Positions 1,301 to 37,715 of a stretch of 64,000 nucleotides of DNA are shown one piece after another. The position numbers and the translations under genes are program-made. The notes under the pieces are model-generated. The model saw only the letters and a program-made list of their open reading frames with translations, was not told where the DNA came from and searched no databases. How positions within the stretch are numbered: position 1 is the first letter of the stretch; every line of letters starts with the position of its first letter. This DNA comes from Solimonas terrae. Lineage in GTDB: Bacteria > Pseudomonadota > Gammaproteobacteria > Nevskiales > Nevskiaceae. The stretch lies in assembly GCF_011067135.1 (NCBI RefSeq), contig NZ_JAAMOW010000004.1:372001-436000 (forward strand). Direction: 5' to 3'.

Positions 1301-1433
1301 CGGCAGACTCCGCCGATCGGTGCGACAACGCTGCAGGTGTCCGTTCTTGCGACAGGTCGGCGGGGCCCGCGCGGTGCGGACAGTACGGAGTCAGGCATGT
1401 CGTCGATGAGCAGGTGAAAGCGGAACGGGGATT

Positions 1434-2860: not shown

Positions 2861-3187
2861 CGGCGAATTCGGTGCTTGACAGAGCGAGTGGATTTACGCT
2901 GCGCTGCGGCATCTTATGCACAGAGTTGGTGCCCGTCTGGCGTCAGCCCGCCTGCCAGCGACATTTTTCCGTCAAAATCCCGCAGAAAATAGGCAAGCTC
3001 ATGTTTTTGATTTGAAAATTGGCATGAACACAAACTGGCCCCGCAGCAAAAAGCAGCGCAATTACGGCCACTTATGAAGTTGGCCCGCGTATTGTGCACA
3101 AAGATATCCACAGAGATTGTGGGCAAAATATACTTTTCCTTTTAATGCCAGTTAATTGCCAGATAAAGCTCAAGTGAAATCGCGAAT
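2861..3187. other. AT-rich divergent intergenic region with DnaA-box-like sites
   Basis: A 327-bp gap between the divergent thiD and the exported-protein gene. Positions 3001-3180 count at about 41% GC against mid-60s around it. It contains one exact TTATNCACA match (TTATGCACA, 2914-2922) and two single-mismatch matches (TTGTGCACA 3092-3100; ATATCCACA 3104-3112). A 70-codon minus-strand open frame exists at 2914-3126 but has no recognisable motif and is cysteine-rich in an unstructured way; I do not call it. Both flanking genes must have promoters here, but no convincing -35/-10 pair was found. Confidence 0.5.
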
Positions 3188-4093
3188 ATGACAACGATGA
3201 CGGCCTGGCGCTTCCGGCGGGGCTGCGCGCTGCTGCTGCTCGCGGGCCTGCCGAGCGTGCGAGCTGCGGTCCCGGCGGCGGTTACCGATACCCGCCTGCC
3301 GGAGCTTTCAGGCTGCTCGCGATCGAGACTCGATCCGCAACGACTCTGGGTTCACAACGATAGCGGCAATCCGGCGCAGCTGTACGCCATCGATCTGCGG
3401 GGGCAGGTGCGGCAGACGGTCGCGGTCGCCGGTGCCGAAGCGCGAGACTGGGAGGATATCGCGAGTTTTCGCTGGCACGGGATGCCGTACCTGGCACTGG
3501 CCGATACCGGCGACAACTTCGCATGGCGCGACGATGTGGCGGTGCTGCTGTTGCAGGAGCCGGCTGCCGGTGCCCGGCGCGCGACGCCATTGCGCACGAT
3601 CCGCTTCCGCTACCCGGACGGTGCCCATGACGTTGAATCGCTGGCCGTCGATCCGGTGTCCGACGATATCCTGCTGCTCGAAAAGCGCCGGCCGCCGGCG
3701 CGGCTCTATCGCCTTGCTCTCGACGGTCCGGAACGCCAGCAGGCCGAGCCGATCGCGGTCCTGCCCGACTGGTGGCCCGAGCCGCCGACTCCGGTCGAGA
3801 CCTTGGGTGCGCAGCACTATCGCGGCGCGGTCGCGGCCATGGACCTGTCGGACGACGGCCTGCATCTGGCGATGCTGACGTCGACGCATTGGATGGTTTT
3901 CACGCGTACGGTCAGCGAAAGCTGGGCCAGCGCGCTGGCGCGGGCCCCGCAGATTGCGCGCCTGCCCGAGCCGGCGGCGCGCGGTGACACCTTGTTCGAG
4001 GCCCTGTGCTGGGCGGCAGACGGCGGTTTGTGGATCAGCGGTGAACGCTTGCCGGCGCCGCTGCTGCATCTCGACCCGGAATCGCCGCGCTGA
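3188..4093 (+). CDS. Exported protein of unknown function (possible beta-propeller)
   Basis: The 301-residue product begins with a clear signal peptide (WRFRRGCALLLLAGLPSVRAA), so it is exported. The rest is rich in short Trp/Asp-containing repeats typical of beta-propeller or phytase-like esterase folds: LWVHNDSGNPAQLYAID, ARDWEDIASFRW, LALADTGDNF, DVESLAVDPVSDDILLLEK, and a late CWAADGGLWISGE. These resemble secreted proteins of the esterase-like phytase group, but no catalytic residue can be named. A second in-frame ATG lies three codons downstream; the Shine-Dalgarno is weak for both. The gene ends 5 bp before the MITE-like element. Confidence 0.7.
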   Translation: MTTMTAWRFRRGCALLLLAGLPSVRAAVPAAVTDTRLPELSGCSRSRLDPQRLWVHNDSGNPAQLYAIDLRGQVRQTVAVAGAEARDWEDIASFRWHGMPYLALADTGDNFAWRDDVAVLLLQEPAAGARRATPLRTIRFRYPDGAHDVESLAVDPVSDDILLLEKRRPPARLYRLALDGPERQQAEPIAVLPDWWPEPPTPVETLGAQHYRGAVAAMDLSDDGLHLAMLTSTHWMVFTRTVSESWASALARAPQIARLPEPAARGDTLFEALCWAADGGLWISGERLPAPLLHLDPESPR

Positions 4094-4097
4094 AGTT

Positions 4098-4369
4098 CTA
4101 GGACCTGTTAACGCTAATGGTGTCGCTGTGGTGGTGCTTGGCAAGCCGCCAGGCAAGGCGCGAGACGCGCACTTGGGTAATCCCCAAGAAGCGGCTCGCA
4201 ACGCCGCATGGCGGCTTGCCAGGCACCACCCCGAAGGGGCCGGGCCGTTTTGCCGCATCGCGGCGTCTCTCGTCGCTCATGTACGTCAAGTACACCTCAC
4301 TCCTCGTTCCTTGCGCTGCGGCAAAACAACCTCGGCCACAGTGACGCCATTAGCGTTGACAGGCCCTAG
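4098..4369. mobile_element. MITE-like element with nested inverted repeats
   Basis: The two ends are imperfect inverted repeats: 4098-4131 matches the reverse complement of 4336-4369 at 30 of 34 positions, with the core GTTAACGCTAATGG at the left. Both edges carry CTAG, which may be the target duplication. Inside lie further inverted repeats: 4131-4151 with 4209-4229 (one mismatch), and 4248-4257 with 4317-4326 (perfect, TTTTGCCGCA). There is no transposase frame. CTAG fits the YTAR/TA-type targets known for IS5-superfamily elements, but the parent is not identified. It sits between two convergent genes, where its stems could also stop transcription. Confidence 0.75.
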
Positions 4370-16877: not shown

Positions 16878-17750
16878 TTGCGCGCGACCGCCATGGTCTG
16901 GCTGCGCCGCAGCGTTGCTGCGTGCGCGCTGCTCTTCGTCTGCAGCCTGCCGGCGCAGGCCGACGTGGCGGTGCCGGCGCTTGCGGCGCGCGTTACCGAT
17001 CTGGGCAGCACGCTGGACGCCACGCAACGCGGTGCGCTGGAAGCCAAACTCGCGGCTTTCGAACAGGCCAAGGGCAGTCAGATCGCGGTGTTGATCGTGC
17101 CGACCACCGAGCCGGAAACCATCGAGCAGTATTCGATCCGCGTCACCGATGCCTGGAAGCTGGGCCGCAAGGGGGTTGATGACGGCGTGCTGATCCTGGT
17201 CGCGCGCAACGACCACACGATCCGCATCGAAGTCGGCTACGGCCTCGAAGGCGTGGTGCCGGACGCGATCGCCAATCGCATCATCGATGAAACCATCGTG
17301 CCGCGCTTCAAGGCGGGTGACTACTACGGTGGACTCGATGCCGGCATCACGCAGCTGATCGGTGTGATCAATGGCGAGGCGCTGCCGCCACCGCCGCGGA
17401 CATCGCGGGCGCAAGGCGACCATCGCGTCGGTGCGGTAATGCCGCTGCTGTTCTTCGTGCTGGTCGGCGCACAGTTTCTGCGCCGCGTGCTGGGCAGCGG
17501 CCTCGGTTCCGTGGTCGCCGGTGGCGCCGTGTTCGCGATCGCCTGGCTGCTGTCGGGCACGCTGCTGATCGCCATCTTTTTCGGCATCGTCGCCTTGCTG
17601 CTGACCTTGCTCGGCATCGTCCCGCTCGGCGGCTTCGGCGGCGGTTTTGGCGGGGGTGGTTTCGGCGGTGGTGGAGGGGGCTTCGGCGGTGGCGGCTTCA
17701 GCGGCGGCGGCGGCGGTTTCGGCGGCGGCGGCGCATCGGGGCGATGGTGA
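16878..17750 (+). CDS. TPM-domain membrane protein with Gly-rich tail
   Basis: A 290-residue exported and membrane-bound protein: signal peptide (VAACALLFVCSLPAQA), a TPM domain (PF04536; VTDLGSTLDATQRGALEAKL, GSQIAVLIVPTT, RKGVDDGVLILVARNDHTIR, GYGLEGVVPDAIANRII), then two or three TM helices and a C-terminal tail of FGGGG repeats. I chose the TTG at 16878 because AGGAG lies 7 nt upstream; ATG at 16893 is the alternative. Some TPM members are reported to be acid phosphatases or photosystem repair factors; here the role is unknown. Confidence 0.88.
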   Translation: MRATAMVWLRRSVAACALLFVCSLPAQADVAVPALAARVTDLGSTLDATQRGALEAKLAAFEQAKGSQIAVLIVPTTEPETIEQYSIRVTDAWKLGRKGVDDGVLILVARNDHTIRIEVGYGLEGVVPDAIANRIIDETIVPRFKAGDYYGGLDAGITQLIGVINGEALPPPPRTSRAQGDHRVGAVMPLLFFVLVGAQFLRRVLGSGLGSVVAGGAVFAIAWLLSGTLLIAIFFGIVALLLTLLGIVPLGGFGGGFGGGGFGGGGGGFGGGGFSGGGGGFGGGGASGRW

Positions 17751-22364: not shown

Positions 22365-23138
22365 ATGCCATTTCACGACGCTGTAGAAAAACGCGCACCG
22401 CCGCTGCTTGCGGGGCGTGAAGCACTGTTCCTCGATTTCGACGGCACGCTTACCGAGATCGTTGCGCGACCCGAACTGGTCTTCATCGAGCCAACGCTGA
22501 TCGCGCTGATCGAACGCGCGCAGCGCCGGCTCGGAGGGGCGCTCGCGGTGATCAGCGGTCGGCCGCTGCGCGAAATCGATGCGTATCTGCTGCCGCTGCA
22601 GCTGCCCGGCGGCGGACAGCATGGCGCGGAGTTGCGGGTACACGGCAACGCGACACCGCAGCGTCGCGTCTGGCCGGGTGTTGCTGCAGCCGCCGAGCAG
22701 ATCCGTCGCCGATTCGGCGAGGACCGGCAACTGATCGTCGAAAACAAGGGCGCGTCGGTGGCCGTGCATTACCGGGCGGCGCCGGAGCGGGCGGCCGAGT
22801 GCCAGGCATTCATGCGCGAAATCGCCGTGCAGTTCGAACTCGGCGTGCTGGTCGGCAAGATGGTGGTCGAGGTCCGGCCGCGCGATCTGCACAAGGGACA
22901 CGCGGTGGAAACCCTGATGCGGCGGCCTTTGTTCGCGACGCGGACGCCGGTGTTCGTTGGCGACGACACGACCGACGAAGACGGGTTTTCCTGGGTGCAG
23001 GCGCACGGCGGCTACGGCATCAAGGTCGGTTCCGGCGACAGCGTCGCGGCGTTCCGGCTCGACGGCGTTCATGCCGTACACAGCTGGCTTGCGGATAGTA
23101 CGGCGACAGTATCGAGCCCGGGAGTAGGCAGGAGATGA
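22365..23138 (+). CDS. otsB: Trehalose-6-phosphate phosphatase
   Basis: A 257-residue HAD-family phosphatase with motif I ALFLDFDGTLTEI (nucleophile and acid aspartates), LAVISGRPLREID (motif II), GGQHGAELR, and motif IV VFVGDDTTDEDGF. It releases trehalose from trehalose-6-phosphate. It overlaps otsA by 4 bp, giving an otsB-otsA operon for osmoprotectant synthesis. The 97-bp upstream gap is relatively AT-rich, with no confident promoter. Confidence 0.95.
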   Translation: MPFHDAVEKRAPPLLAGREALFLDFDGTLTEIVARPELVFIEPTLIALIERAQRRLGGALAVISGRPLREIDAYLLPLQLPGGGQHGAELRVHGNATPQRRVWPGVAAAAEQIRRRFGEDRQLIVENKGASVAVHYRAAPERAAECQAFMREIAVQFELGVLVGKMVVEVRPRDLHKGHAVETLMRRPLFATRTPVFVGDDTTDEDGFSWVQAHGGYGIKVGSGDSVAAFRLDGVHAVHSWLADSTATVSSPGVGRR

Positions 23139-24520
23139 GTCGTCTGGTCGCCGTTTCGAATCGTGTCGGCAGCCTGCGCGGTGCGACACGTGCCGGCGGC
23201 CTGGCCGTGGCGCTGGCAGAGGCGCTGCAGACGCGCCGCGGACTCTGGTTCGGCTGGAGCGGTGAAGTCGTCGAGCAGTCCGCCGACCAGGTCCGCCGGC
23301 AGACGGCGGGCGGCGTCACGCGCGCCACCGTCGATCTGACCACGGTCGAACACGACGACTACTACAACGGTTTTGCCAATGCCTGTTTGTGGCCCTTGTT
23401 CCACTATCGACTCGATCTCACGTCCTTCGACCGGCGCTTCTACGACAGCTATCAGCGCGTCAACCGGCGTTTTGCGCACGCGCTGATCCCGTTACTGCGC
23501 GACGACGATCTGGTCTGGGTGCACGACTATCACCTGCTGCCTTTCGGCGACATGCTGCGCGACGCCGGCTGCGAGCAGAAGCTCGGCTTTTTCCTGCACA
23601 TCCCGTTTCCCGTGCGTGAAGTCTTCACCACGCTACCGATGCACGATCGACTCGCGAGAGCGTTGATGGCGTACGACCTGATCGGCTTCCAGACCGACGG
23701 CGACGTGCAGCGTTTCCGCGATTACGTGTTGCGTGAGGCTGGCGGACGTCGTGACGGCGACACGTTGACGGCCTACGGCCGGACCGTGACGGTGAAGGCG
23801 TTTCCGATCGGCATCGACGCCGAACAGTTCGCGGAAATGGCGGCGAGCGACGAGGCGGGCCGGGACGCGGCGCGCCTGAAGGCGGCGATTTTCAACCGCG
23901 TGCAGATCATCGGCGTCGACCGGCTCGATTACACCAAGGGCATTCCGGAACGCTTTCACGCCTACCAGACCCTGCTCGAGAACTATCCCGACACGCACGG
24001 CCAGATCAGCTTCCTGCAGATCGCACCGACTTCGCGCGGCGAGGTTCCCGAGTACATCCACCTGCGGCACGAGCTGGAAACGCTGGCGGGTCACATCAAC
24101 GGCCGCTTTGCGCAGCTGGACTGGACGCCCCTGCGCTACATCAACCGTGCGATCACGCGACGCCAGCTCGCCGGCCTTTACCGCATGAGTCGCATCGGCT
24201 TCGTCACGCCCCTGCGCGACGGCATGAATCTGGTCGCCAAGGAATACGTTGCGGCGCAGGATCCCGACGATCCGGGCGTGCTCGTGCTGTCGCGCTTTGC
24301 CGGCAGCGTCAAGCAGATGCCGGCCGCGCTGATCGTCAATCCGTACGATACCGCCGGCGTTGCCGAGACCCTGCAAAAGGCGCGGCACATGCCGCTCGCA
24401 GAGCGGTGCGCGCGGTATCAGGAGCTGATGAAGGGCCTGATCGAGAACAACGTCGGCAAATGGAGCGATGACTTCGTCGGCACGCTGGAGCGGCTCGGCG
24501 CCGAGATGGCGCTCGCGTAG
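23135..24520 (+). CDS. otsA: Trehalose-6-phosphate synthase
   Basis: A 461-residue GT20 glycosyltransferase that joins UDP-glucose and glucose-6-phosphate. It has LVAVSNRVG and RAGGLAVAL at the start, WFGWSGE, YYNGFANACLWPLFHY, VWVHDYHLLPFGDMLRD, LGFFLHIPFPVREVF, RLDYTKGIPERFHAYQTLL and TPLRDGMNLVAKEYVAAQ with the nucleotide-sugar-binding residues. Length is typical. Translation is coupled to otsB. Confidence 0.96.
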   Translation: MSRLVAVSNRVGSLRGATRAGGLAVALAEALQTRRGLWFGWSGEVVEQSADQVRRQTAGGVTRATVDLTTVEHDDYYNGFANACLWPLFHYRLDLTSFDRRFYDSYQRVNRRFAHALIPLLRDDDLVWVHDYHLLPFGDMLRDAGCEQKLGFFLHIPFPVREVFTTLPMHDRLARALMAYDLIGFQTDGDVQRFRDYVLREAGGRRDGDTLTAYGRTVTVKAFPIGIDAEQFAEMAASDEAGRDAARLKAAIFNRVQIIGVDRLDYTKGIPERFHAYQTLLENYPDTHGQISFLQIAPTSRGEVPEYIHLRHELETLAGHINGRFAQLDWTPLRYINRAITRRQLAGLYRMSRIGFVTPLRDGMNLVAKEYVAAQDPDDPGVLVLSRFAGSVKQMPAALIVNPYDTAGVAETLQKARHMPLAERCARYQELMKGLIENNVGKWSDDFVGTLERLGAEMALA

Positions 24521-24586
24521 CCGGCCGTTGCCGGACACGGACGGAAAGCAGGAAGGCCCGTTGCGGACCCTCCCGCAAATCCGGAT

Positions 24587-26554
<1,968 letters not shown>

Positions 26555-26716
26555 TCATTTCTCCCGATCGCGCAGCGCGGCCTTGCGCGCCATTTTGTTC
26601 TTGCGCATCCGCGCAGGCGGCAGATTATTCCGCAAAGTGCGCGAAAAGTATGTCGGGCGTGTCGAGTCTGGCGCCGCCGCCAGACGGACGAGTCGTGCGC
26701 GACAATCGGCAGTCAC

Positions 26717-26750
26717 AAAAAAGCGCGACCACCCTGCGGGCGATCGCGCC
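26717..26750 (-). terminator. Intrinsic terminator after the LpqC-like gene
   Basis: On the minus strand GCGCGA pairs with TCGCGC around a 15-nt loop that can extend the stem (CCC/GGG), followed by T6. It lies 19 bp beyond the stop at 26769 and before acs. Confidence 0.75.
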
Positions 26751-26768
26751 GTTTCGATGCGCGGGATC

Positions 26769-27794
26769 TCAGAGCGGATGGGCGCTGAAGAAGCTCCAGA
26801 TTTCGTCGTTGGCATTCATGTCGGCGCTGGTCTTGCCGATCATCGACTCGGGCAGGTACTGACTGCCACCGGGCCAAGTGTGGCCGCCATTGGTGACGGT
26901 ATAGAGGCGGACTTCGCCGCCGCTGCCGCAACCGGCGTTGCGTGCGACCGAAATCGTCGTCCCGTCATTGGCCACATCCGGCAGCGCCGTGTTCATCGTG
27001 CTCGAAGCGGTGCAGTTGTGACGGCTCAGCCAGAAGGAGAAGGCATCCGGCGCCGACATCACGCCGAGGCGACCACCGTCATAGGGCACGATCGGGTCGG
27101 CCGTGCCGTCGATGAACATGATCGGACGCGGCGTCGCCGGCTCGCAGGCCGATGACAGGCCGTTCGACATCGTGCCGGCGACCAGCGCGACGGCGGCGAT
27201 GCGGTCCGACAGTTCGCATCCCAGGCGCTCGGCCATGAACGCACCATCGGACAGGCCGCTGACGAACACGCGCTTCGCGTCGAGGTGCAGATAGCCGGTG
27301 ACAATGTCGATGACCTTGGCGTTGAAGCCGACATCGTCGACGCCGGTCGAGTAGCCCGGATTGTCGTTCCATTCGTTGTCGAGCGATTCCGGCAGCACGG
27401 CCCAGAAGCCGTCGGCGACCACGGCATTGCCGATCGACGTCAGATTGGCCTGCGCTTCCGGCGTGCCGCCGCTGCCGTGCAGCATCATGAACGCGGCCGC
27501 CCCACTGTTGGCCGGCTCCGGGCGCACGACCAGAAAGCGCCGCGTCGCGCCGCCGTCGGTGAAGCTGATGTCGAAGCCGGCGGTTCCGCGCGGCAGCACC
27601 AGCCAGTGACCGCCGATGCTGACCAGCGTATTGGCCGTGTATTTGCCCGCCACTTTCGGGTCGGAAACGGTGAGGGTGCCGATCGGGCCGGTATGCGCGC
27701 CGACGAACGACGGAACGGTGGCGGCTTGTGCCGGCAGGACCTGGGCGAGCGAGAGCGCCAGCGACAGCGCGATGAAGATTCTGAAATTGACCAT
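26769..27794 (-). CDS. Exported LpqC/PHB-depolymerase-like alpha/beta hydrolase
   Basis: A 341-residue protein with a signal peptide (IFIALSLALSLAQVLPAQAA). The catalytic domain begins near residue 75: RFLVVRPEP, FMMLHGSGGTPEA (oxyanion region), the nucleophile elbow VSGLSDGAFMAERLGCEL with Ser, PIMFIDGTADPIVPYDGG (Asp) and TNGGHTWPGGSQY (His). This is the family of PHB depolymerase-like and feruloyl-esterase-like LpqC hydrolases. Several cysteines probably form disulfides in the periplasm or outside. The ATG at 27794 has GGGAG upstream. The substrate is not known. Confidence 0.87.
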   Translation of the reverse strand: MVNFRIFIALSLALSLAQVLPAQAATVPSFVGAHTGPIGTLTVSDPKVAGKYTANTLVSIGGHWLVLPRGTAGFDISFTDGGATRRFLVVRPEPANSGAAAFMMLHGSGGTPEAQANLTSIGNAVVADGFWAVLPESLDNEWNDNPGYSTGVDDVGFNAKVIDIVTGYLHLDAKRVFVSGLSDGAFMAERLGCELSDRIAAVALVAGTMSNGLSSACEPATPRPIMFIDGTADPIVPYDGGRLGVMSAPDAFSFWLSRHNCTASSTMNTALPDVANDGTTISVARNAGCGSGGEVRLYTVTNGGHTWPGGSQYLPESMIGKTSADMNANDEIWSFFSAHPL

Positions 27795-28003
27795 GGATAA
27801 GAACTCCCTAAGTGCTGTGGAACTGTAGTTCGCCGGGAGCTCGGTGACGGCGCCGTTGATCCGCCAGAATCGACAGTTGAGCGACTCCGGAACCGGCCCG
27901 CTCCGTTCGTCGCCGAAATGCGACCGTTCGCGGCGCGAGCCGACGTCCGAGCGCGTGGCCGAGCGGGTGATCGGGACGGGCGTGTGCCGCCGCCGTTCGC
28001 GGA

Positions 28004-30805
28004 TCAGGTACTGACGGGTGGGTGGCCGGCGGCTTCCGGCGCGCGTGCACTGTCGATCAGTTCCGCCGTGCGGATGCTGAGGCTGTGCCGTGCGCCAAAG
28101 TTGTGGGCGAAGAGCCGGTGCGCCTGCCGCAGGTGGGGAAGCGCGTCGGCAGGGCGCTGCTCGCTGAGCAGCACGCGGGCGAGCGCATATTCGGCGTGTG
28201 CGGTGCGGTTGTTGTTGTTCGGCATGCGTTCTGGTGCAAGCGCGATGACATGGCGCAGGCGCGCTTCGGCCTGTGCGAGTTCGCCGTCCGCGGCTTCGGC
28301 CTCGGCCAGCAGGCGCGCGATGTCGATCGAGTGCGGATGATCTTCGCCGAGGGTCTTGATCGAGCTTGCGAGTGCGTCAGCCAGGGTCCGTCGCGCGCGG
28401 GCGGCGTGACCGGTGTGAATGTCGACCTCGCCGAGTCGCGTGAGCATGCGTCTCGTACGATAGTTCTCGTCGCCGAACACGGTCCGGTATCTGGCGAGCG
28501 CGGTTTCGAAATAGCGGCGTGCCTCGTCGTAACGACCCTGCCGCATGCGAATGGTGCCGAGATGGTTGTAGCAGGCGATCGTCAGCGGATGATTTTCGCC
28601 GAGCCTGTCTCGTGCCTTTCGCAGCACGCCCTGCGTCAGGGCCTCCGCATCGTCCCATTGCTCGAGCATGCGCAGGATGTAGACCTTGCTGAGCGTGGGC
28701 CACAGGGCATCGACGCTGTCGGCGCCATGGCGTATCGCCACGCGCGTCAACACGTCGTCGACGGTGCGTCGGGCGAGTGCCCAGCGCTGTGTCTCGACAT
28801 AGACCTCGACCAGATTGGCGTCGATCTGCAGCAGCAGGTCGGCGGATTCCGGACGCTCGCGCCGGACGTCGGCACGCAGTGCTTCAAGCGCGGACTGCGC
28901 CTGCGCAAAATAGCCGTTCTCGAAACGCTCCCATGCCAGCGCGCGGCGCAGCGACAGGCGCTCCGGGTCGTCGGCCGGGAGCCTGGCCTGCGTCCAGCGG
29001 TCGAGCCGCCGGTAGAGCGCGCGTGCGCCGCCCGGATCGGCGAGTCGCAATTCCAGCGCCGCCAGCGCCGACATGATGCTGCGCAGGTCGGCATCGTCTT
29101 CGATGCCGGCGGCCGGGGCATTGCCGAGCGCGGCCCGCAAGGTGTCGCGCGCCTGTTCTTCCAGGCCGAGCTGGGTATAGGCGCGGGCAATGGTCAGCGT
29201 CAGGCGTGCACGGATCTGTGCCTGCCGGGCAAACCGTGTCTGCAGTTTGCTGGCGGCCGTGTCGAGGATCGAGGCGATCGTGACGCTGCGGCCGCCGCCC
29301 GGCACATAGGGGTTGGCGGCACCGAGCAGGTCATCGTTGACGAAGCTGTTGACGGCGCGCAGCGTGCCGGCCTCGATCTGCGTCTGCCGTTCGCTGGCGC
29401 GTGCACGAAGATACAGTGCGGTGCTGACCATGAAGCCCGCGCACAGCGACGCCAGGACGGCCGCCTGCCAGCGGCGGCGATGGCGCAGTTTCTCGATCGC
29501 GGCCTGCGCCGCCTCCCCCGCCTTCAGTGCCGCCGCGCGTTCGCTCTCGAGCTGCTGCCGCTGTCGGCGGGTTTCCCGGCGCGCCGGCAGATTGCGCAGT
29601 CGCAGCGCAAGCTGCGCGGCATCGCCAAGACGGTGCGCGGGGTTGAAATCCGCGGCCGAGGCGATGTCTTCCTGCAGCAGCGGATCGTCGATCTCACGTT
29701 CCCAGCCCGGCGCGAGCGGTCGCAGCAGATCGCCGGCCGCCAGCTGATAGGCCATCACGCCGAGCGCGTAGATGTCGGAGCGCGTGGTCGGCGCTGCGCC
29801 AGCCAGCAGTTCCGGCGCGACATAGAGCGATGTGCTGCCGCCGTCGCCGGCAACCAGATCGACGCGCGGCAGGCCGATCTGCGTGAGTTTGAGCTTTTCG
29901 AGAATGCTTGCATCGACGCCGGCGCTGCCGAAATCGGCGAGGCGCACCTGCGGGATTTCATCACCGTCCTCGTTGCGCAGCAGGATGTTGTCCGGCTTCA
30001 GATCCTTGTGGAGCACGCCGAGCGCATGTGCCGTCGCGACCGCATCCGCCATCCGCGCCGCGAGCTCGAGCCGCTGGGCCAGTGGCAGCGCCGAAGCCCC
30101 GCCGCGGCTTTCCAGCCAGCGCCGCAGGTTGCCGAGCGGTTCGTAGCGCATCTCGATGAAGTACGGGTGCTGCTCGAGATTCCAGTCGAGGATTTCGACC
30201 ACCGGAATCTGCCGCTCGCTGTCCCGGGCCAGGATCCGGAAGACGGCAATCTCCCGTTTCAGCGCGGCGAGCGCGTCGCTGTCGTGCGCGAACTTGAAGG
30301 CCCGCCATTGCCCCGTCGTGCGATGCCGTGCGCGCCAGACACGCCCCAGATCGTCCAGCGCGGTTTCCAGCATCCAGTTGGGCCGGCCGGGTGGCCGGTC
30401 GCCGCTGCGCGGCGTGGCAGCCGTCGGCAGCGATGTCGGCATGTTCTCGAGCCGGCAGTCGCCGACGAAGCGATAGCCGTAGCCGTGAACGGTGACGATA
30501 CGGCTTGCGCCCTCGTCGCCAAGCGCCTCGCGAAGCTTGGCGACGCAGCGGGCGATCACATTCTCGGTCACCACGCGGCCGACCCAGATGGTGTCGATCA
30601 GATCCCGCTTGGCGACCAGTTCGCCCGACTGGCGCAGCAGCAACAACAAGAGGTCCAGTGGCTTGGGTTCGAGTTTGACGAGCACGCCGTCGCGCCGCAG
30701 TTCGCGGCTCGCCTCGTCGAGCACAAAACGCCCGAACGACCAGCGCTGCGATCGTTTGCCAGGGCCCCCACCCTTGGCCGAGCCTGGAGTCAGCCGCTCA
30801 GTCAT
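28004..30805 (-). CDS. Winged-helix / Ser-Thr kinase / TM / TPR fusion regulator
   Basis: A 933-residue protein from the ATG at 30805 (a TTG 36 bp upstream is in frame). Order: an OmpR/CadC-type winged helix (~20-115; GRFVLDEASRELRRDG, IVTVHGYGYRFVGD); a Hanks-type kinase (~125-430) with the beta-3 lysine in RAFKFA, a degenerate glycine loop (DLGRVWRA), LHKDLKPDNILL (~265; HKD rather than HRD), ADFGSAG (~292) and YVAPELL; a basic coiled segment; one TM helix (~447-468); then TPRs to the end (several GENHPLTIACYNHLGTIR-like units). Each part is known; all in one chain is unusual. It is divergent from a large lipoprotein gene. Confidence 0.88.
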   Translation of the reverse strand: MTERLTPGSAKGGGPGKRSQRWSFGRFVLDEASRELRRDGVLVKLEPKPLDLLLLLLRQSGELVAKRDLIDTIWVGRVVTENVIARCVAKLREALGDEGASRIVTVHGYGYRFVGDCRLENMPTSLPTAATPRSGDRPPGRPNWMLETALDDLGRVWRARHRTTGQWRAFKFAHDSDALAALKREIAVFRILARDSERQIPVVEILDWNLEQHPYFIEMRYEPLGNLRRWLESRGGASALPLAQRLELAARMADAVATAHALGVLHKDLKPDNILLRNEDGDEIPQVRLADFGSAGVDASILEKLKLTQIGLPRVDLVAGDGGSTSLYVAPELLAGAAPTTRSDIYALGVMAYQLAAGDLLRPLAPGWEREIDDPLLQEDIASAADFNPAHRLGDAAQLALRLRNLPARRETRRQRQQLESERAAALKAGEAAQAAIEKLRHRRRWQAAVLASLCAGFMVSTALYLRARASERQTQIEAGTLRAVNSFVNDDLLGAANPYVPGGGRSVTIASILDTAASKLQTRFARQAQIRARLTLTIARAYTQLGLEEQARDTLRAALGNAPAAGIEDDADLRSIMSALAALELRLADPGGARALYRRLDRWTQARLPADDPERLSLRRALAWERFENGYFAQAQSALEALRADVRRERPESADLLLQIDANLVEVYVETQRWALARRTVDDVLTRVAIRHGADSVDALWPTLSKVYILRMLEQWDDAEALTQGVLRKARDRLGENHPLTIACYNHLGTIRMRQGRYDEARRYFETALARYRTVFGDENYRTRRMLTRLGEVDIHTGHAARARRTLADALASSIKTLGEDHPHSIDIARLLAEAEAADGELAQAEARLRHVIALAPERMPNNNNRTAHAEYALARVLLSEQRPADALPHLRQAHRLFAHNFGARHSLSIRTAELIDSARAPEAAGHPPVST

Positions 30806-30974
30806 GCCGCGATCTTGCTCGAAACGACAGTCGGGCGACAAGCCGCATGGTCATGAATCCGTCAGAACTTGATCAGGACATGCGAAGGACATCGGCGCGT
30901 TGTGCCTCCTATCGTCTACCGATGCCGGCGATCCACAGGGCGATCACGGCGGTTCGCCAAACAGGGGGAGCATC

Positions 30975-32975
30975 ATGAAATTTCCATACGAAGCGGCGCG
31001 GTCGGGTCGACTGCTGCTGATCGGCAGTCTGTTCATCGTCGCGCAGCTGGCGGCGTGCGGTGGCGGCGGCCACGACGACGGTGGTGACGGGGGCACGCCG
31101 CCACCGACGACTGTCAAACTGAAGTTGAAGGGCGCAGTCACGGATGCGCCGGTCGCCAACGCGGTCGTCACGGTACATGTCGGCGATCAGAGCTTTGCCG
31201 CCACGGCAGATGCCAACGGTACGTACGAGGCCGATGTCGAAGTCGACGAGAGCCAGACCGGTGCTTTCGTCAGCATCGACGCCAAGGGGACGGATGGCCA
31301 GGAATTCGTCGAATTCAGCAGCCTGCTCGGGTCGCTGGCGACGCTGGCGAGTCAGGCCGGTGGCGACGGCGTGCTGACGCCGGACGAAAACTTCGCGACG
31401 CAGGTGACCAATGTCAGCACCGCGGAAGCGGCTCTGCTGGTTCGCGCCAACGGTGGCAATCCGGTGAGTTCGGAAGCGGCCTTGAAAGCGCTGGGTGCGG
31501 CGGTCAACGGCCAGGCCGTGCTCGATCTGGCGACAGCGATCAAGCTCGCAGTCGATTCGGCGGCCGAGCATCCTCTGCCGTCCGGCTTCAGCTCGACGCT
31601 GGCGCTCGCAAATGACGCCGACGCCAGCGACGCCTTTGTCGCGGACACCCAGGCCCAGAATCCCGAGATGTTCGCGCAGGCCCAGGCGTCGATCGTCGAC
31701 GATCCGACGCTGACCAAGCCGGTGGTTGCCGGCGACATTCCCGCCAGCCTGACAGCGGCGATCCTGTCGACCGACGCCGGCTTCACCTTCAACTACACGA
31801 ACCGCGTCGTCACCTACGAGTTCGATCAAAGTGGCAGCGGCGTGGTCGCGGGCGGTTCGTACAACGTGGGCATGCACTGGGTCGCCAGCGGCTCCGGCGT
31901 GGCGGTGACTTACAACGAGCCGATACGGACCGTGAGCTACGACACCGAAGACTGCGACGGCACGGTCCGCCAGGTCGAGGCTCATTACACGACCAACGGT
32001 GCGACGCTGTCGCTGCTCAGCGGCCGCACACTGGCGTCCAAGGAGACGGCGACGATCCACTACGCCGATTGCCCGAGCCTTGCGGACCGCACACAGACCA
32101 CCACTTCGGCCTCGACCATACTCGGCGATGACGACTTCGAGCAGCTGACGGCCGGCGATCTCGCGGACACCCGGCAGTCCTTCTACGTCTATGACGCCGC
32201 GCAGCAGCAGGTCGTGGCCGATGTTGCGCAGCTCAACGCCGACGGCAGTGGCATCGCCATGGTGTCCGGCGAAGCCTTCAGCTGGACCGTCGACGCACAA
32301 GGTGCCGTCAACGTCAGCTTCGCCGGCGGTGTCGTCGGACGTTATCGCGAATTGCGCGCGGTCGACGCCTTCACATCGGACCTGTTCTATGACCTGCAGA
32401 CCGACGACGGCCGTTTTGTCGATGCCGGCGCGTCGGTCGAGGTCGATCCGGCGTTCGCGACCGAGATCGATGTCGCCGATCTGCCCGGCCGTTACTACCA
32501 GTTCGGCATCGGCAACGAGCTGAACCCGGGTTCCGGTACCAAGGACTTCCGCCTGCGCTTCGATCCGAGCGGCACCGGCGCCCAGGAAAACGACTTCATC
32601 GACGGCAACGGCAATCTCGTGACCGTCGACGAGAACCGCGATCCTTCCGTGGCGTTCCGCTGGGTGCTCGACGACAACATGATCGTCGTGCAACGGACCT
32701 TCAATACCGACAACGGCGCCTACAACTGTGTCGCCGGCAGCGCGAACTGCGTGCTGTTCGACCAGCGCACGATCATTCCGCTGGTTGACGAAAACGGGCG
32801 CTACTACGTGCTCGAAAGACGGCAGGTCGCGACCTACGGCATCACGGCGCAGACGCCGACGACCGGACTGATTCGGTACTACGACTACGAGCCGCTGGAC
32901 GCGCCGGCTGCCGGCGCAGCGCCGCCGGCCCGGGTCGGGAAGCTGGCGCCGGCGCGCGGGCCATCCCTGCATTGA
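30975..32975 (+). CDS. Large lipoprotein of unknown function
   Basis: A 666-residue protein with a lipoprotein signal (LIGSLFIVAQLAACGGGG, cysteine ~28) followed by a Gly/Asp linker and a carboxypeptidase-regulatory-like Ig fold (KLKGAVTDAPVANAVVTVHV ... ATADANGTYEADV). The rest is unrecognised, with beta-rich segments such as TFNYTNRVVTYEFDQSGSG and LPGRYYQFGIGN, and paired cysteines in the C-terminal half. The ATG at 30975 has AGGGGGA upstream. Likely on the outer membrane. It is divergent from the kinase fusion gene, 169 bp apart, so the two may share control. Confidence 0.72.
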   Translation: MKFPYEAARSGRLLLIGSLFIVAQLAACGGGGHDDGGDGGTPPPTTVKLKLKGAVTDAPVANAVVTVHVGDQSFAATADANGTYEADVEVDESQTGAFVSIDAKGTDGQEFVEFSSLLGSLATLASQAGGDGVLTPDENFATQVTNVSTAEAALLVRANGGNPVSSEAALKALGAAVNGQAVLDLATAIKLAVDSAAEHPLPSGFSSTLALANDADASDAFVADTQAQNPEMFAQAQASIVDDPTLTKPVVAGDIPASLTAAILSTDAGFTFNYTNRVVTYEFDQSGSGVVAGGSYNVGMHWVASGSGVAVTYNEPIRTVSYDTEDCDGTVRQVEAHYTTNGATLSLLSGRTLASKETATIHYADCPSLADRTQTTTSASTILGDDDFEQLTAGDLADTRQSFYVYDAAQQQVVADVAQLNADGSGIAMVSGEAFSWTVDAQGAVNVSFAGGVVGRYRELRAVDAFTSDLFYDLQTDDGRFVDAGASVEVDPAFATEIDVADLPGRYYQFGIGNELNPGSGTKDFRLRFDPSGTGAQENDFIDGNGNLVTVDENRDPSVAFRWVLDDNMIVVQRTFNTDNGAYNCVAGSANCVLFDQRTIIPLVDENGRYYVLERRQVATYGITAQTPTTGLIRYYDYEPLDAPAAGAAPPARVGKLAPARGPSLH

Positions 32976-32993
32976 TCGCGACATGAATGAAAG

Positions 32994-33018
32994 GGGGGCG
33001 GCGCGAGCCGCCCCTTTT
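32994..33018 (+). terminator. Intrinsic terminator after the lipoprotein gene
   Basis: GGGGCGGC-GCGA-GCCGCCCC followed by TTTT, a perfect 8-bp stem with a stable tetraloop, about 20 bp past the lipoprotein stop. Confidence 0.9.
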
Positions 33019-33086
33019 GCCTGACACCATGCCGGCCATTCCGCATCCGGCTTCGCCTTCGGCATCGGCGCACGGGATAATGTGCC

Positions 33087-33926
33087 GTGCACTACCAACA
33101 TCGCTTTCACGCCGGCAATTTCGCGGACGTCCACAAGCACGTCATCCTGTGCGGCCTGCTGCGCGCCCTGTCCCGCAAGGAAGCGCCATGGGCGTATCTG
33201 GAAACGCATGCCGGCGGCGGTGCCTACGATCTCGCCGACGAAGCCGCGAGCCGCACGGCAGAGTTCCATGACGGCATCGAGCGGCTGTACGGCGCAATCG
33301 CTGCGCCCGAGCCAGTCTCGGCGTACCTTGAAATCGTTCGGACGATGAACGCGCACGCGGCCTTGCGCCGTTATCCCGGCTCGCCGTTGTTTGCTGCGCA
33401 CTATGCGCGGGCGTTCGATCGCATCCTGCTTTGCGAGCGCGAGCCGGCGATCGTCACGACGCTGAAGGCCGAACTGGGCGCCGATCCGCATGTAGCCGTC
33501 CATCACCGTGATGGCTACGAGGCGCATGCCCTGCTGCCGCCACGCGAGAAACGCGGGCTGGTGCTGATCGATCCGCCGTTCGAACGGCCGGACGAGTTCG
33601 ACGCGGTGACCGGATTCGTGACGCGCGCCCTCGGTCGCTTCAGCAACGGCGTGATTGCGGTCTGGTATCCGTACAAGAAGCGCTTCGACACCGAGCGCTT
33701 CCTGCGCCGCCTGCGCCGCGACTGCGCGCGCGAGGCAATCAACTATGTCCTCGAAACCGGCGCCGCCAGCGAGGGCCGGATGCACGCCTGCGGGATGGTC
33801 GTCATCAATCCGCCGTTTTCGTTCGTCGGCGAGATGTCAGCGGCGCTGCCGTGGCTCGCCGACATGCTGTCGCGAGGCGCCAGGGCGCAGTCCCGCGTCG
33901 AGTCCTGGGTGCCGGGCAAACTCTGA
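33087..33926 (+). CDS. rlmJ: 23S rRNA (adenine(2030)-N(6))-methyltransferase
   Basis: A 279-residue SAM-dependent methyltransferase that modifies A2030 of 23S rRNA. It starts at a GTG giving MHYQHRFHAGNFADVHKH, nearly the canonical RlmJ N-terminus. The catalytic DPPF motif is in LVLIDPPFERPDEFD, and YPYKKRFDTERF, ETGAASEGRMHACGMVVINPP follow. Its stop overlaps the ATG of the nudix gene (TGATG), so they are coupled. Confidence 0.94.
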   Translation: MHYQHRFHAGNFADVHKHVILCGLLRALSRKEAPWAYLETHAGGGAYDLADEAASRTAEFHDGIERLYGAIAAPEPVSAYLEIVRTMNAHAALRRYPGSPLFAAHYARAFDRILLCEREPAIVTTLKAELGADPHVAVHHRDGYEAHALLPPREKRGLVLIDPPFERPDEFDAVTGFVTRALGRFSNGVIAVWYPYKKRFDTERFLRRLRRDCAREAINYVLETGAASEGRMHACGMVVINPPFSFVGEMSAALPWLADMLSRGARAQSRVESWVPGKL

Positions 33927-34480
33927 TGGGCGGCAAAATGAACATGAACGACAGCCCCGAAATCGAAGAACTGCATCGCGGTCGCTTTCTGCGACTGGTC
34001 CGCGATCGCCATTGGGAATACGTCACGCGTGTCAACAGCAGCGGTGCCGGCTTCATCGCCGCGCTGACCGATGCCGGTGAAGTCGTGCTGGTCGAGCAGT
34101 ACCGACTGCCGCTGCATGCCCGCACCATCGAATTGCCGGCCGGCATGATCGGCGACGAGGCGGCGTTCCAGGACGAAAGCATCGAGGCGTCGGCCTTGCG
34201 AGAGCTCGAAGAGGAAACCGGCTTTCGCGGCACGCATGCGCAGATTCTGATGTCCGGTCCGGTTGCCGCCGGCCTGACCAGCGAGATGCTGCACCTCGTG
34301 CGCATCCGCGGTCTGCAGCGCGTCGGCGCCGGCGGTGGTGTCGATGGCGAAGACATTACCGTGCATCTCGTGCCGCTTGCCGACGTCGACGGATGGCTGC
34401 GGCGCAAGCAGGGCGACGGCCTGCTGATCGAACCGCGCATTTATGCGGCCCTGTATTTCCTGTCGCGTGACGGCTGCTGA
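33926..34480 (+). CDS. NUDIX hydrolase, ADP-ribose-pyrophosphatase-like
   Basis: A 184-residue protein, start ATG overlapping the rlmJ stop by one base. The Nudix box is recognisable as SIEASALRELEEETGF with the glycine loop extended by two residues (IGDEAAFQDE). The upstream VVLVEQYRLPL and IELPAGMIGDEA resemble ADP-ribose/GDP-mannose pyrophosphatases of the NudF/NudK group. Its TGA is directly adjacent to the convergent PAS-GGDEF-EAL stop with no base between. Confidence 0.87.
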   Translation: MGGKMNMNDSPEIEELHRGRFLRLVRDRHWEYVTRVNSSGAGFIAALTDAGEVVLVEQYRLPLHARTIELPAGMIGDEAAFQDESIEASALRELEEETGFRGTHAQILMSGPVAAGLTSEMLHLVRIRGLQRVGAGGGVDGEDITVHLVPLADVDGWLRRKQGDGLLIEPRIYAALYFLSRDGC

Positions 34481-37000
34481 CTACGCGGCGCGCGGCGGCT
34501 CCAGCAGACGCGCGAAATCCTCTGCGCGAACACCGGGGCTGTAGCGGAATCCCTGCACCTCGTCGCAGCCGCGATCCAGCAAGTATTGCTCCTGCTCCTC
34601 CGTTTCCACGCCTTCGGCGATCACCCGGATGTCGAGGCTGCGCGCCATCGCGATGATGGCATTGACGACTGCGGCATCGGCGGCGTCGTTGGCGATGTCG
34701 CGCACGAATGATCGGTCGATCTTGATCTTGTCGATCGGGAAGCGCGTCAGATAGGCGAGGCTCGAATACCCCGTGCCGAAGTCGTCGACGACGATGGCGA
34801 TGCCGAGCCGACGCAGCTCGCGCAGCACTTCCGCGCTTTCCTCCGGGCTTTGCATCAGCATGCCTTCGGTGATTTCCAGTTCCATGCAATGCGCCGGCAG
34901 ACCGCTTTCCGTGAGCACTCTTTGCAGCAACTGTGGCAGATCCTTCTGCTGGAACTGCCGCGGCGACACGTTGACAGCCAGACGCAGATTGCGACCGGCG
35001 GTGCGCTGCAGTGCCACACATTCCCGGCAGGCGCTGTGCAGCACCCATTCGCCGAGCGTCAGGATCAGGCCGGTCTCCTCGGCAACCGGAATGAAACGAT
35101 CCGGCGATACCTCGCCGTGGCGTGGACTGGACCAGCGTACCAGCGCTTCCATGCCGACGATGCGGCCATCGCGCAGCGAGATCTCCGGCTGATAGACGAT
35201 GGTCAGTTCGCTGCTCTCGATTGCGCGACGCAATGCGGTGCCGAGCGCCAGTTTCTCTTCGGTCTGCTGCAGCATGGCCGTCGTGAACCAGTGGAAATTG
35301 CTGCGGCCGCTGGCCTTGGCGTGGTACATCGCGGTGTCGGCATTCTTCAGCAGCGCGCCGGGGTCGCTGCCGTCGGCCGGAAACATGCAGCCGCCGATGC
35401 TCGTCGTCACCAGCAGTTCGTGCCCGTCGAACGACATCGGCGCCGAGATCGTCCGCATCAGTTCATTGATCAGCGGCTGGACGTCGCTGGCCGAATGGAT
35501 GCCGGTCAGCACGATGACGAATTCGTCGCCCCCCAATCGCGCCACCGTGTCGACATCGCGTACGCGGCGCTGCAGGCGTTGCGAAATCTTCAGCAGCAGC
35601 TTGTCGCCGATCTGATGACCGAGTGAATCATTGATGCGCTTGAAGTGATCGAGATCGAGCATCAGCACGACGACACCGCCACCGCTGCGGCGGGCCTGAC
35701 GGATCGCGCTTTCGAGGCGGTCCAGCAGCAGCGTCCGGTTCGGCAGATTGGTCAGGGCGTCGTGATGTGCCATGTGGCGGATGAAGGCCTCGGCACGGCG
35801 GCGTTCGGTGATGTCGTAGGCCACCTTGAGGAAGCCGTTGACACGGCCGCTCTCGTCGCGCATCGCGGTGATCGCGATGTTGACCGGCACCCGCGAACCG
35901 TCGCGATGCACATAGGTCCACTCGCGCTCGTCGGCTGTGGTGCGGCTGCCGGAAGCGACGATGACCTGGAAGTTGGCGGGAATGTGCAGCCCGGTCTGGG
36001 TCGACAGCTCCTCGGCGCGGCGCTCGACCTCTGCCGGTTCGTGCATGACCATCGCCGACTGGCCGACCAGCGCCTGCGGCGGATAGCCGAGCAACTGTTC
36101 GGCCGCCGGATTGATCGCGACGATCTGCCCTTCGGTGTCGGTCGCGATGACGCTGAACGGCAGGCTGTCGAGGATGGCCTGGCGCAGGACACCGGCCTGC
36201 AACGAGCGCTGCAGACGGTCGGCGCTCAGGCGTTCGGTGATGTCGATCACCGAGGCGAGCACGAACTGCGCCTGCTCGATGCGCAGCGGATTGAGCCCGA
36301 TCTCGATCGGCACTTCGCTGCCGTTCTTGCGCAGGCCGTAAAGATCGCGGCCGGCCCCCATCGCGCGGGCGTCCGGCTGGCTGAAGAAACCGTTGCGCGA
36401 GCGCTCATGCTGATGCCGGAAGCGCTTCGGGATCAGTGACTCGATCGTCAGCTCCAGCAACTCCTGGCGGCTGTAACCGAACAGCTTCTCGGCCTGCGAG
36501 TTGACCAGCACGATGCCACCGCCGGCGTTGACCATCAGCATGGCATTCGGCGCCGCCTCGATGACCAGACGCAGGCGTTCCTCGCTGCGCTTGCGCTCGG
36601 TGATGTCGATGATCGACGCCAGCACGAACACGCCTTCCGGCATCTTCAGCGGATTGAGGCCGATCTCGATCGGCACCTCGCTGCCGTCCTTGCGTACGCC
36701 ATACAGGTCGCGACCTGCGCCCATGGATCGGGTATCGGGGTGCGCGAAGAAGCCACGTCGATAGCCGTGATGTGCGCCGCGAAAGCGTTGCGGCACCAGC
36801 ATTTCCACGGACTGGCCGAGCATTTCGCTGCGCAGGTGACCGAACAGGCGTTCCGTCTGCGAATTGACGAGGATGATCGTGCCCTGCTGGTCGACCATGA
36901 TCATCGCGTTCGGGGTCGCTTCGATGACCAGCCGCAGGCGCTGCTCTTCGCCGAGGGCGGGCAGGGGCCCGGGCGTTTCAGCGTGCACGTCGTTAGGCAT
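34481..37000 (-). CDS. PAS-PAS-PAS-GGDEF-EAL cyclic-di-GMP enzyme
   Basis: An 839-residue cytoplasmic protein without TM segments. Two similar PAS domains (~20-135 and ~140-258) share the segment DLYGxRKxGSEVPIEIGLNP, then a third PAS (~275-400). GGDEF at ~405-565 has ALTNLPNRTLLLDRL and RLGGDEFVIVL intact, so cyclase activity is possible. EAL at ~580-830 has GMEALVRW, LEITEG, DDFGTGYSSLAYL, KIDRSFV and VIAEGVET, so the metal sites look complete and phosphodiesterase activity is likely. One or other activity may dominate; sequence cannot say. Confidence 0.93.
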   Translation of the reverse strand: MPNDVHAETPGPLPALGEEQRLRLVIEATPNAMIMVDQQGTIILVNSQTERLFGHLRSEMLGQSVEMLVPQRFRGAHHGYRRGFFAHPDTRSMGAGRDLYGVRKDGSEVPIEIGLNPLKMPEGVFVLASIIDITERKRSEERLRLVIEAAPNAMLMVNAGGGIVLVNSQAEKLFGYSRQELLELTIESLIPKRFRHQHERSRNGFFSQPDARAMGAGRDLYGLRKNGSEVPIEIGLNPLRIEQAQFVLASVIDITERLSADRLQRSLQAGVLRQAILDSLPFSVIATDTEGQIVAINPAAEQLLGYPPQALVGQSAMVMHEPAEVERRAEELSTQTGLHIPANFQVIVASGSRTTADEREWTYVHRDGSRVPVNIAITAMRDESGRVNGFLKVAYDITERRRAEAFIRHMAHHDALTNLPNRTLLLDRLESAIRQARRSGGGVVVLMLDLDHFKRINDSLGHQIGDKLLLKISQRLQRRVRDVDTVARLGGDEFVIVLTGIHSASDVQPLINELMRTISAPMSFDGHELLVTTSIGGCMFPADGSDPGALLKNADTAMYHAKASGRSNFHWFTTAMLQQTEEKLALGTALRRAIESSELTIVYQPEISLRDGRIVGMEALVRWSSPRHGEVSPDRFIPVAEETGLILTLGEWVLHSACRECVALQRTAGRNLRLAVNVSPRQFQQKDLPQLLQRVLTESGLPAHCMELEITEGMLMQSPEESAEVLRELRRLGIAIVVDDFGTGYSSLAYLTRFPIDKIKIDRSFVRDIANDAADAAVVNAIIAMARSLDIRVIAEGVETEEQEQYLLDRGCDEVQGFRYSPGVRAEDFARLLEPPRAA

Positions 37001-37124
37001 GTCGGCGGCCAGAGGCGGGAATCGTCCGGAATTTAGGCCGCCAGCACCCCTCGCGCGGGCGCGCGGGCGCCGAACGTATCGAATCGGCCGACCGGCGAGT
37101 GGGCGGCCGGCAGGTCGGCTGCCG

Positions 37125-37715
37125 TCAGGGCGCGAACAGCAGGGTCAGTTCCAGGCCGACGGTCTTGCCCTCGATGGTGGGTGTCAGGCTGACGCGCTGC
37201 CTGCCTTGATACGGCGTGGTGATCAATTTGGAGATGCCGTAGGAAAGCGCACAGCCGGCGATGACGTCGCGCAGGTGGTGGTAGTGCTCGTCGACACGCG
37301 AGTAGCCGGTGAATATCGCGGTGCCGTACAGCGGCAGGCTGTATTGCCAGCCGTAGCGATCACTGATGAACGCGGCCGCCGAACAGGCTGCCGAGGTGTG
37401 GCCGGACGGAAACGATTCATTTCCGCCGTTCGGACGCTTGCCCCAGGCGGTGTGATCGAAGCTGTATTTCAGAACCTCGGTGGCTGCAAAGCTCGCGGCA
37501 AAATCGTAGGCGTACTGCCTGGTGCCCTGATAGTCGCCCTTGTACAAGGTCACGCCGGTGGCGACCAGCGGGTTGAGCACCTGGAAGATATCGCCTGCGG
37601 CGAGGTCCGGATCGTCGTGCAGTTCGCTGACGATGCCACCGGCCTGCGCAGTCGGTGTGCAGAGCACGGTCAGTGACAGTGCCACGCCAGCCGCGCCCGC
37701 GCCTATCGCCCGCAT
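37125..37715 (-). CDS. Exported PAP2-family acid phosphatase
   Basis: A 196-residue protein with a signal peptide (AGAAGVALSLTVLCTPTAQA) and the three PAP2 phosphatase blocks: KRPNGGNESFPSGHTSAAC (motifs 1 and 2, residues ~92-110) and SRVDEHYHHLRDVIAG (motif 3, ~138-153). The active-site Arg and both His are present. It may act on lipid phosphates or periplasmic phosphomonoesters. It is divergent from thiC. Confidence 0.88.
   Translation of the reverse strand: MRAIGAGAAGVALSLTVLCTPTAQAGGIVSELHDDPDLAAGDIFQVLNPLVATGVTLYKGDYQGTRQYAYDFAASFAATEVLKYSFDHTAWGKRPNGGNESFPSGHTSAACSAAAFISDRYGWQYSLPLYGTAIFTGYSRVDEHYHHLRDVIAGCALSYGISKLITTPYQGRQRVSLTPTIEGKTVGLELTLLFAP

Follow-up and report, generated by a model that had tools for sequence, protein, structure and literature searches.

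A predicted single-chain receptor kinase with a DNA-binding domain and a tandem-repeat operator in Solimonas terrae

A 64-kb stretch of Solimonas terrae DNA (contig NZ_JAAMOW010000004.1, positions 372,001 to 436,000; hereafter the window) encodes a protein of 933 residues (28004-30805) in which an OmpR/CadC-type winged helix-turn-helix (wHTH), a Hanks-type kinase, a single transmembrane (TM) helix and an array of tetratricopeptide repeats (TPRs) follow one another, and whose gene shares an upstream gap with a divergent lipoprotein gene (Table 1). In this gap we found an operator of three tandem 11-bp repeats, new here, which recurs upstream of related kinase genes and varies in sequence together with the winged helix rather than the kinase domain. 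We consider it fairly likely that the protein is a single-chain membrane receptor and, at the same time, a local, kinase-equipped transcription regulator of the divergent lipoprotein gene. Computation supports this proposal through the architecture, the catalytic residues, the operator, the link with divergent gene order together with its preferred -10 spacing, and the operator-wHTH covariation.

According to the proposal, the cytoplasmic winged helix would bind the three head-to-tail repeats at 30849-30880, between both genes, and from this operator the protein would control the lipoprotein promoter, most likely by activation rather than repression, and might tune its own promoter as well. 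The TPR array, in the periplasm, would sense a protein, which might be the lipoprotein or the lipoprotein's cargo, and the kinase would pass this sensing state on through phosphorylation, with the kinase itself, the DNA-binding head of the chain or another protein as substrate. More tentatively, the kinase might control DNA binding by its own chain. Just as tentative is the fuller version, in which the winged helix would be both output domain and substrate: a signal read by the TPRs would alter phosphorylation of the chain, thereby switching its grip on the triple operator before a secreted-protein gene. The likelihoods that we attach to these proposals rest on held-out cross-validation, gene-order and promoter geometry, and operator-wHTH covariation.

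Table 1. Features of the kinase-lipoprotein locus (positions in the window; wHTH, winged helix-turn-helix; TM, transmembrane; TPR, tetratricopeptide repeat)
Feature	Position	Strand	Details
wHTH-Hanks kinase-TM-TPR protein	28004..30805	(-)	ATG start, 933 aa
OmpR/CadC-type winged helix	30440..30751	(-)	residues 19-122
Presumed recognition helix, ENVIARCVAKLREAL	30521-30565	(-)	residues 81-95
Hanks-type kinase domain	29594..30376	(-)	residues 144-404; K171, E185, HKD 266-268, N273, DFG 291-293, APE 330-332
Single transmembrane segment	29408..29470	(-)	residues 446-466, hydrophobic, directly after RHRRR
TPR-type helical array, predicted periplasmic	28043..29278	(-)	residues 510-921
Shared gap between kinase and lipoprotein genes	30806-30974		169 bp
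Predicted operator, three 11-bp units	30849..30880	(-)	minus strand TGTCCTGATCAAGTTCTGACGGATTCATGACC; TGA at three 11-bp steps
Possible lipoprotein promoter, by eye	30886..30915	(+)	AGGACA 30886-30891, 18-nt spacer, TATCGT 30910-30915
Divergent lipoprotein gene, putative transcriptional target	30975..32975	(+)	666 aa; LAAC ending at Cys28

The predicted 11-bp repeat operator and the winged helix

In an orthologue (genome G001) and in a distant family member (G018), the shared gap contains direct repeats that recur every 11 bp. We analyzed 98 upstream regions, that is, 127 minus near-duplicates. Exact 7-mer repeats at a lag of 11 were present in 21 of these, compared with 21 of 490 windows drawn at random from the same loci (Fisher p 1.8e-7). 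Among lags 7 to 44, lag 11 was the highest, followed by lag 18 with 15 regions; the controls were raised at multiple-of-three lags, as expected of coding DNA, and 11 is no such multiple. The motif obtained by expectation-maximisation comprises some three units of 11 bp, approximately AGTCCTgACGgA-nTTCTnAaGAA-tTTCTnAaG, and has a log-likelihood of 491, compared with 87 and a far weaker motif for shuffled upstream regions; on random windows it reached 294 with a different motif that was present in nearly every window.

A position weight matrix (PWM) was cross-validated five-fold, with the upstream regions of other genes of these loci as background (431 in all, 200 of them sampled for each fold). 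Held out, it recognized 34 of the 98 upstream regions at a false-positive rate (FPR) of 1%, where one was expected by chance (Mann-Whitney U p 1.8e-20), and 51 at 5% FPR, where five were expected. With both strands scored, all 34 held-out sites share one orientation relative to the kinase gene. Only this cross-validation is held-out; the PWM used for the other site scans, the geometry and the covariation was trained on the same 98 regions. Across 1.25 Mb of loci from named genomes, 48 sites scored above 17 with a PWM trained on these loci, and 43 of them lie within 700 bp of the 5' end of a kinase open reading frame (ORF). A stricter exact pattern matched 13 times in 61 genomes, namely the window's own and 60 relatives, compared with one match for the reversed control. 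Six of these matches lie at most 200 bp upstream of a family kinase match, one (G045, 40742) precedes a gene of the lipoprotein family in the vicinity of a kinase of this type, another (G025) sits 2.5 kb upstream of such a match, and five are elsewhere. In locus L055, a strong operator (16930-16957, score 25.7) is located far from that locus's kinase gene and may mark a distant target.

The window operator scored 27.3 with the held-out PWM (1% threshold, 16.9), is the sole PWM site above 12 in the window, and matches the own-genome pattern without mismatch. With at most one mismatch, this pattern occurs three times in the genome, twice directly upstream of its two wHTH-kinase genes. No inverted repeats with 6-bp arms were found in the gap.

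The operator varies in step with the winged helix. Over 44 sites, operator distance correlated with wHTH distance (Mantel 0.585), with kinase distance (0.409) and with TPR distance (0.501). The wHTH-operator correlation persisted when kinase and TPR distance were controlled (partial Mantel 0.367, p 0.0002), whereas the kinase-operator correlation vanished when wHTH and TPR distance were controlled (0.001, p 0.49). In addition, helix types pair by eye with particular operator hexamers: HVLATAVGKLRKAL with TTCAAG, NVLANAVAKLRKAL with CTAACG or ATCACG, GSLATAVSKLRKAL with CTAAAG, CTTAAG or CTCAAG, NVIARCVAKLREAL with CTGACG, and ASLTKCVARLRQAI with CCGAAA. These observations point to a winged helix that is very likely a working DNA-binding domain with its predicted site in the shared gap, and we predict with high confidence that the protein binds DNA at the window operator.

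Gene order, promoters and the divergent lipoprotein

The presence of an operator goes with the direction of the neighboring gene. Among the 62 loci that could be classed (site threshold 15), 42 have an upstream gene that is divergent, and 30 of these carry a site, compared with 3 of 20 with a co-directional one (p 3.5e-5). The most conserved positions outside the repeats lie on the divergent side, where the mean -10-like score at offset 17 reached a z of 5.8, compared with 2.6 for the best offset on the kinase side. With a -10 element at offset 17, the outermost unit (AGGACt on the divergent strand) would occupy the -35 position.

The upstream neighbor is divergent in 54 of 72 named loci (p 1.3e-5 versus one half); these are 80 loci from which L071 and L102 (kinase ORF not selected), four loci without an upstream gene and two at a contig edge were dropped, and they include L034 and L055, whose ORF starts run far upstream, so that the neighbor is misassigned. 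As called with a home-made codon model, by which signal-peptide classes are heuristic and some starts wrong, divergent neighbors less than 600 bp away have a signal-peptide or lipoprotein-like start in 30 of 47 cases, compared with 235 of 673 other genes (p 1.3e-4), and a lipoprotein-like one in 12 of 47, compared with 50 of 673 other genes of the loci. The divergent partners span many unrelated families. Of 20 proteins hand-picked from the 54 divergent upstream neighbors, 12 had no Pfam match at E 0.001, and Calx-beta, fn3 (below cut-off) and OmpA domains occur among the 20. A single conserved partner family was rejected, as no cluster of neighbor ORFs, the kinase aside, was common to more than 6 of 80 loci; the ORFs clustered were chosen by length, so real genes may be displaced, and one 5-locus cluster consists of antisense shadow ORFs.

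The model of the lipoprotein is mostly β-sheet; Foldseek matched it weakly to TbpB and to lipocalins (best E 1.7e-5, with TM-scores near 0.2), and these matches were not used. In the 61-genome sample, the lipoprotein family occupies ten places in nine genomes, the window's own included. At three of these (G000, G001 and G018) the gene is directly divergent from a kinase of this type, and at two more (G045 and G025) it lies within about 5 kb of one. In G045, where another small lipoprotein gene sits between the family gene and the kinase, the lipoprotein homologue does not adjoin the kinase and has its own operator (score 21.6) besides that of the kinase (27.7). The two similar operators of this locus (L135, 8742 and 10276) are separated by 1.5 kb; one precedes the lipoprotein-family gene, and the other lies in the interval from the kinase to the small lipoprotein gene, so a two-target regulon is possible. 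The lipoprotein-family gene of G025 is about 4 kb from the kinase and has no site, and G014 carries only a fragment of a family gene near its kinases. In G003 (L130, 6936-8903), the lipoprotein gene stands beside an rlmJ-like gene, as in the window, with no kinase gene adjacent and with a sub-threshold operator (14.1), as if decaying. The remaining four places score 9.8 or less.

Based on these results, we predict that the protein likely controls the lipoprotein gene. An earlier note, made from the window sequence alone, had offered the lipoprotein as a plausible target or ligand-sensing partner. Its partnership with the kinase has gained ground in a more specific form, with the lipoprotein promoter as the likely target. 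Alternatively, the operator could serve the promoter of the kinase gene in autorepression, with the lipoprotein gene a mere neighbor. The uniform orientation of the held-out sites relative to the kinase gene would suit autoregulation, as would the position of the window operator, 43 bp from the kinase start and 94 bp from the lipoprotein start, and the fact that six of the ten lipoprotein-family places have no site above 17, which also weakens the case for lipoprotein control. However, the scarcity of sites in loci with a co-directional upstream gene, the strongest promoter-like signal on the divergent side and the second operator of G045, which precedes a lipoprotein-family gene away from the kinase, all argue against autoregulation as the main role, and we regard it as unlikely.

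Several further observations weigh against control of the lipoprotein gene from a winged-helix operator. Even at 5% FPR, 47 of the 98 members have no site. The window repeat is imperfect, with no exact 8-mer repeat in the 169-bp gap, and the site fails the strict pattern owing to its third unit. The own-genome pattern is not enriched by number (three matches compared with two for the reversed control), so that the evidence lies in the places of the matches. In the covariation analysis, a TPR-operator correlation remains when wHTH and kinase distance are controlled (partial Mantel 0.17, p 0.0006), and part of the covariation may thus reflect shared ancestry. The -10 signal is an average: of 49 sites, only 5 have a strict TAnnnT at offsets 17-18 and 6 have one at offsets 28-31. 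The hexamer that resembles a -10 element in the window sits at offset 29, roughly one repeat past offset 17, and a sigma-70 consensus scan of the gap found no promoter. Lastly, five of the ten lipoprotein-family places are away from such kinases, so that co-conservation of lipoprotein and kinase holds in part only.

The predicted receptor kinase and its family

The four parts of the protein that the earlier note had read from the letters were recovered by Pfam, hydrophobicity and structure prediction, and the ORF coordinates agree with its divergent 666-aa lipoprotein across 169 bp. Trans_reg_C (residues 43-113, E 1.6e-13), Pkinase (residues 153-361, E 2.2e-22) and TPR_12 (four stretches, E 1.3e-27) all matched above their curated cut-offs. 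In the 933-aa protein, no Pfam match to Response_reg (the receiver domain), HisKA or HATPase_c was found up to E 0.1. Residues 81-95 we take to be the recognition helix, following the OmpR-family fold. An AlphaFold2 model based on a 26-sequence alignment (mean pLDDT 84.8, pTM 0.52) is confident for single domains, with the domain arrangement not settled at this pTM; its secondary structure agrees with a winged-helix domain and a kinase domain, then one long helix that spans the membrane segment, and lastly a TPR array of helices. The top PDB matches of the model in Foldseek include PknA, PDK1, KLC1 and an APPBP2 complex, and PDB sequence matches cover residues 131-389 (kinases) and 715-803 (KLC1). 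A TM-like segment is found at the same place in 97 of 98 family members, and the TPRs are predicted to be periplasmic because RHRRR precedes this segment. The protein has both marks of CadC/ToxR-type regulators, a wHTH (by Pfam and by its covariation with the operator) and a TM helix (a hydrophobic segment) leading to a presumably extracytoplasmic part.

The kinase of the window looks catalytically competent. It keeps the lysine, the HKD aspartate, DFG and APE, as the earlier note had stated, along with Glu185 and Asn273 (Table 1), and the set of six catalytic residues (Lys, Glu, catalytic Asp, Asn, DFG Asp and APE Glu) is kept together in 96 of 98 non-redundant members. The second position of the HRD motif is Lys in 88 members, and the activation-loop residues T308 and T325 are kept as Thr in 91 and 93, respectively. 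The glycine-rich loop is indeed degenerate (LDDLGRVWR); a GxGxxG-like loop is present in only part of the family, and the loop of the window marks one end of this family-wide looseness. We predict with good confidence that the kinase is active.

This prediction has to be set against a CadC/ToxR-like regulator in which the kinase fold would be a non-catalytic spacer or a nucleotide-binding switch. Loose glycine loops in much of the family, the window's included, the two of 98 aligned members without the complete set of six residues, and loss of the HxD motif in L026 would fit such a role; the joint retention of the six residues in all the others and of the two activation-loop threonines in most members speaks against it and leaves it rather improbable. 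L026 itself (1414-4125, minus strand), in which HGALSPDS replaces HKDLKPxN and the winged helix is kept, is a candidate pseudokinase. Least probable of all is a receptor kinase that phosphorylates other proteins, with the winged helix a docking or vestigial module: PknS of Xanthomonas citri, a kinase with a TM helix and periplasmic TPRs, phosphorylates a sigma factor according to the available text of its description (PMC13147305), relatives with kinase, TM helix and TPRs and no wHTH exist, and the catalytic residues are widely kept, but the existence of a family operator and its covariation with the wHTH suggest that DNA reading by the winged helix has persisted, and no sigma-factor gene, such as the ECF gene that neighbors an ECF43-associated (PknS-type) kinase, was found among the seven neighboring ORFs scanned against Pfam (23135-37715; one of them without any match).

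The earlier note had considered the fusion of wHTH, kinase and TPRs uncommon, a view that did not hold within the clade. Matches at E 1e-30 or better were present in 28 of the 61 genomes, the window's own included, at 1 to 8 places each (a few being fragments), and the chain measured at least 850 aa in 28 of 30 loci fetched from this search; alignment A1 omitted L024, L026, L027 and L028. A scan of named genomes gave at least 544 stretches encoding relatives. In the best 80 of these, a selection biased towards the query, 79 have an ORF whose match begins at one of the first 20 model positions and so takes in the winged helix; the exception, L105 from a Planctomycetota metagenome-assembled genome, starts at model position 131. 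Named records with relatives include Nevskia, Solimonas, Hydrocarboniphaga, Dokdonella, Pseudoxanthomonas, Sphingopyxis, Caulobacter, Brevundimonas, Janthinobacterium and Granulicella. In a phylum-wide sample of 120 genomes searched at E 1e-60, the full chain was found in one, the window's own, and two others match from model position 131-143 onward, covering kinase, TM helix and TPRs only. The protein therefore belongs to a family that is large and discrete, has chains of about 920 aa (the median of the 98 non-redundant members being 924 aa), and is common near the window and sparse elsewhere.

Two other contexts were considered and rejected. Plasmid carriage was dismissed because a plasmid collection gave no match at E 1e-20. 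As to anti-phage defence, the 25 PADLOC matches listed, out of 32, all cover the kinase domain, one of them (MkoA) extending beyond it, and none is to the lipoprotein.

Two loci of the wider kinase set are worth recording. The window's own genome has seven Pkinase matches, two of them in winged-helix chains, and encodes an 802-aa kinase (L146, 5999-8407; family model E 9.6e-82) that begins at the kinase domain and adjoins a response-regulator-like gene, named so by eye. In genome G012 (L141, 3807-14215), wHTH-kinase genes stand in a tandem row of three, and behind each comes a gene whose predicted secreted product has 99-119 aa; both 99-aa proteins carry NG repeats such as LNGIVLNG. The array may possibly consist of receptor-ligand pairs.

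Significance and comparison with known systems

Bacterial Ser/Thr kinases are hard to tie to genes, as they have many substrates and their target promoters are unknown. In the present family, each receptor appears to bring its own DNA reader, with an operator that can be found next door in 34 to 51 of 98 members. Receptor, site and candidate target gene can all be named from sequence, so that a single purified chain could be used to test signal transfer between a Hanks kinase and a promoter, and the natural series of wHTH-operator pairs could yield a recognition code for the OmpR family. Should the winged helix prove to be both output and substrate, a single Ser/Thr-based protein would here be the equivalent of a two-component system; the helix-to-DNA code would then be readable across the family, and some genomes would hold several private receptor-target pairs. 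Searching the literature, with most subscription papers left out, we found no description of this architecture, which is no proof that none exists.

OmpR-family winged helices bind direct repeats with an 11-bp period at PhoB and CtrA boxes. The repeats of the present family differ from these boxes in sequence and usually comprise three units adjoining the regulator's own gene. A literature search on 11-bp repeats returned no papers.

One of the closest known systems is that of PknS. Among the 60 PDB sequence matches listed, 9eed_A was the best-scoring bacterial kinase (E 1.8e-11), and PDB entry 9EED is named as PknS in the available text of PMC13147305. The PknS-EcfK system of Xanthomonas citri likewise couples a Hanks kinase, one TM helix and periplasmic TPRs to transcription. 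However, as far as that text goes, it acts via a separate, phosphorylated ECF sigma factor, whereas the window protein has an OmpR-type DNA-binding domain fused to its kinase; PknS is given an N-terminal extension that is 83 residues long, and the main text of the paper contains none of the terms winged helix, HTH or DNA-binding.

With CadC/ToxR-type transmembrane regulators, as presented in the available text of a survey (PMC10269533), the window protein shares the wHTH, the single TM helix and the extracytoplasmic part, and its residues 25-113 match CadC (PDB 5ju7, E 2.2e-10); it differs in having a Hanks kinase between wHTH and TM helix. The terms TPR and tetratricopeptide are absent from the main text of the survey, the kinase passages of which concern histidine kinases. 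The hybrid histidine-kinase regulators of Bacteroides that the same text covers (PMC10269533) are likewise single chains that hold a membrane sensor, a kinase and a domain for DNA binding, but carry a histidine kinase and receiver domains where the window protein has a Hanks kinase. Finally, GraR/Stk1 (PMC4601284) likewise combines a Ser/Thr kinase with an OmpR-type DNA-binding domain, and phosphorylation by Stk1 in trans raises promoter binding of GraR, according to the part of that paper available; what are separate proteins there form one chain here.

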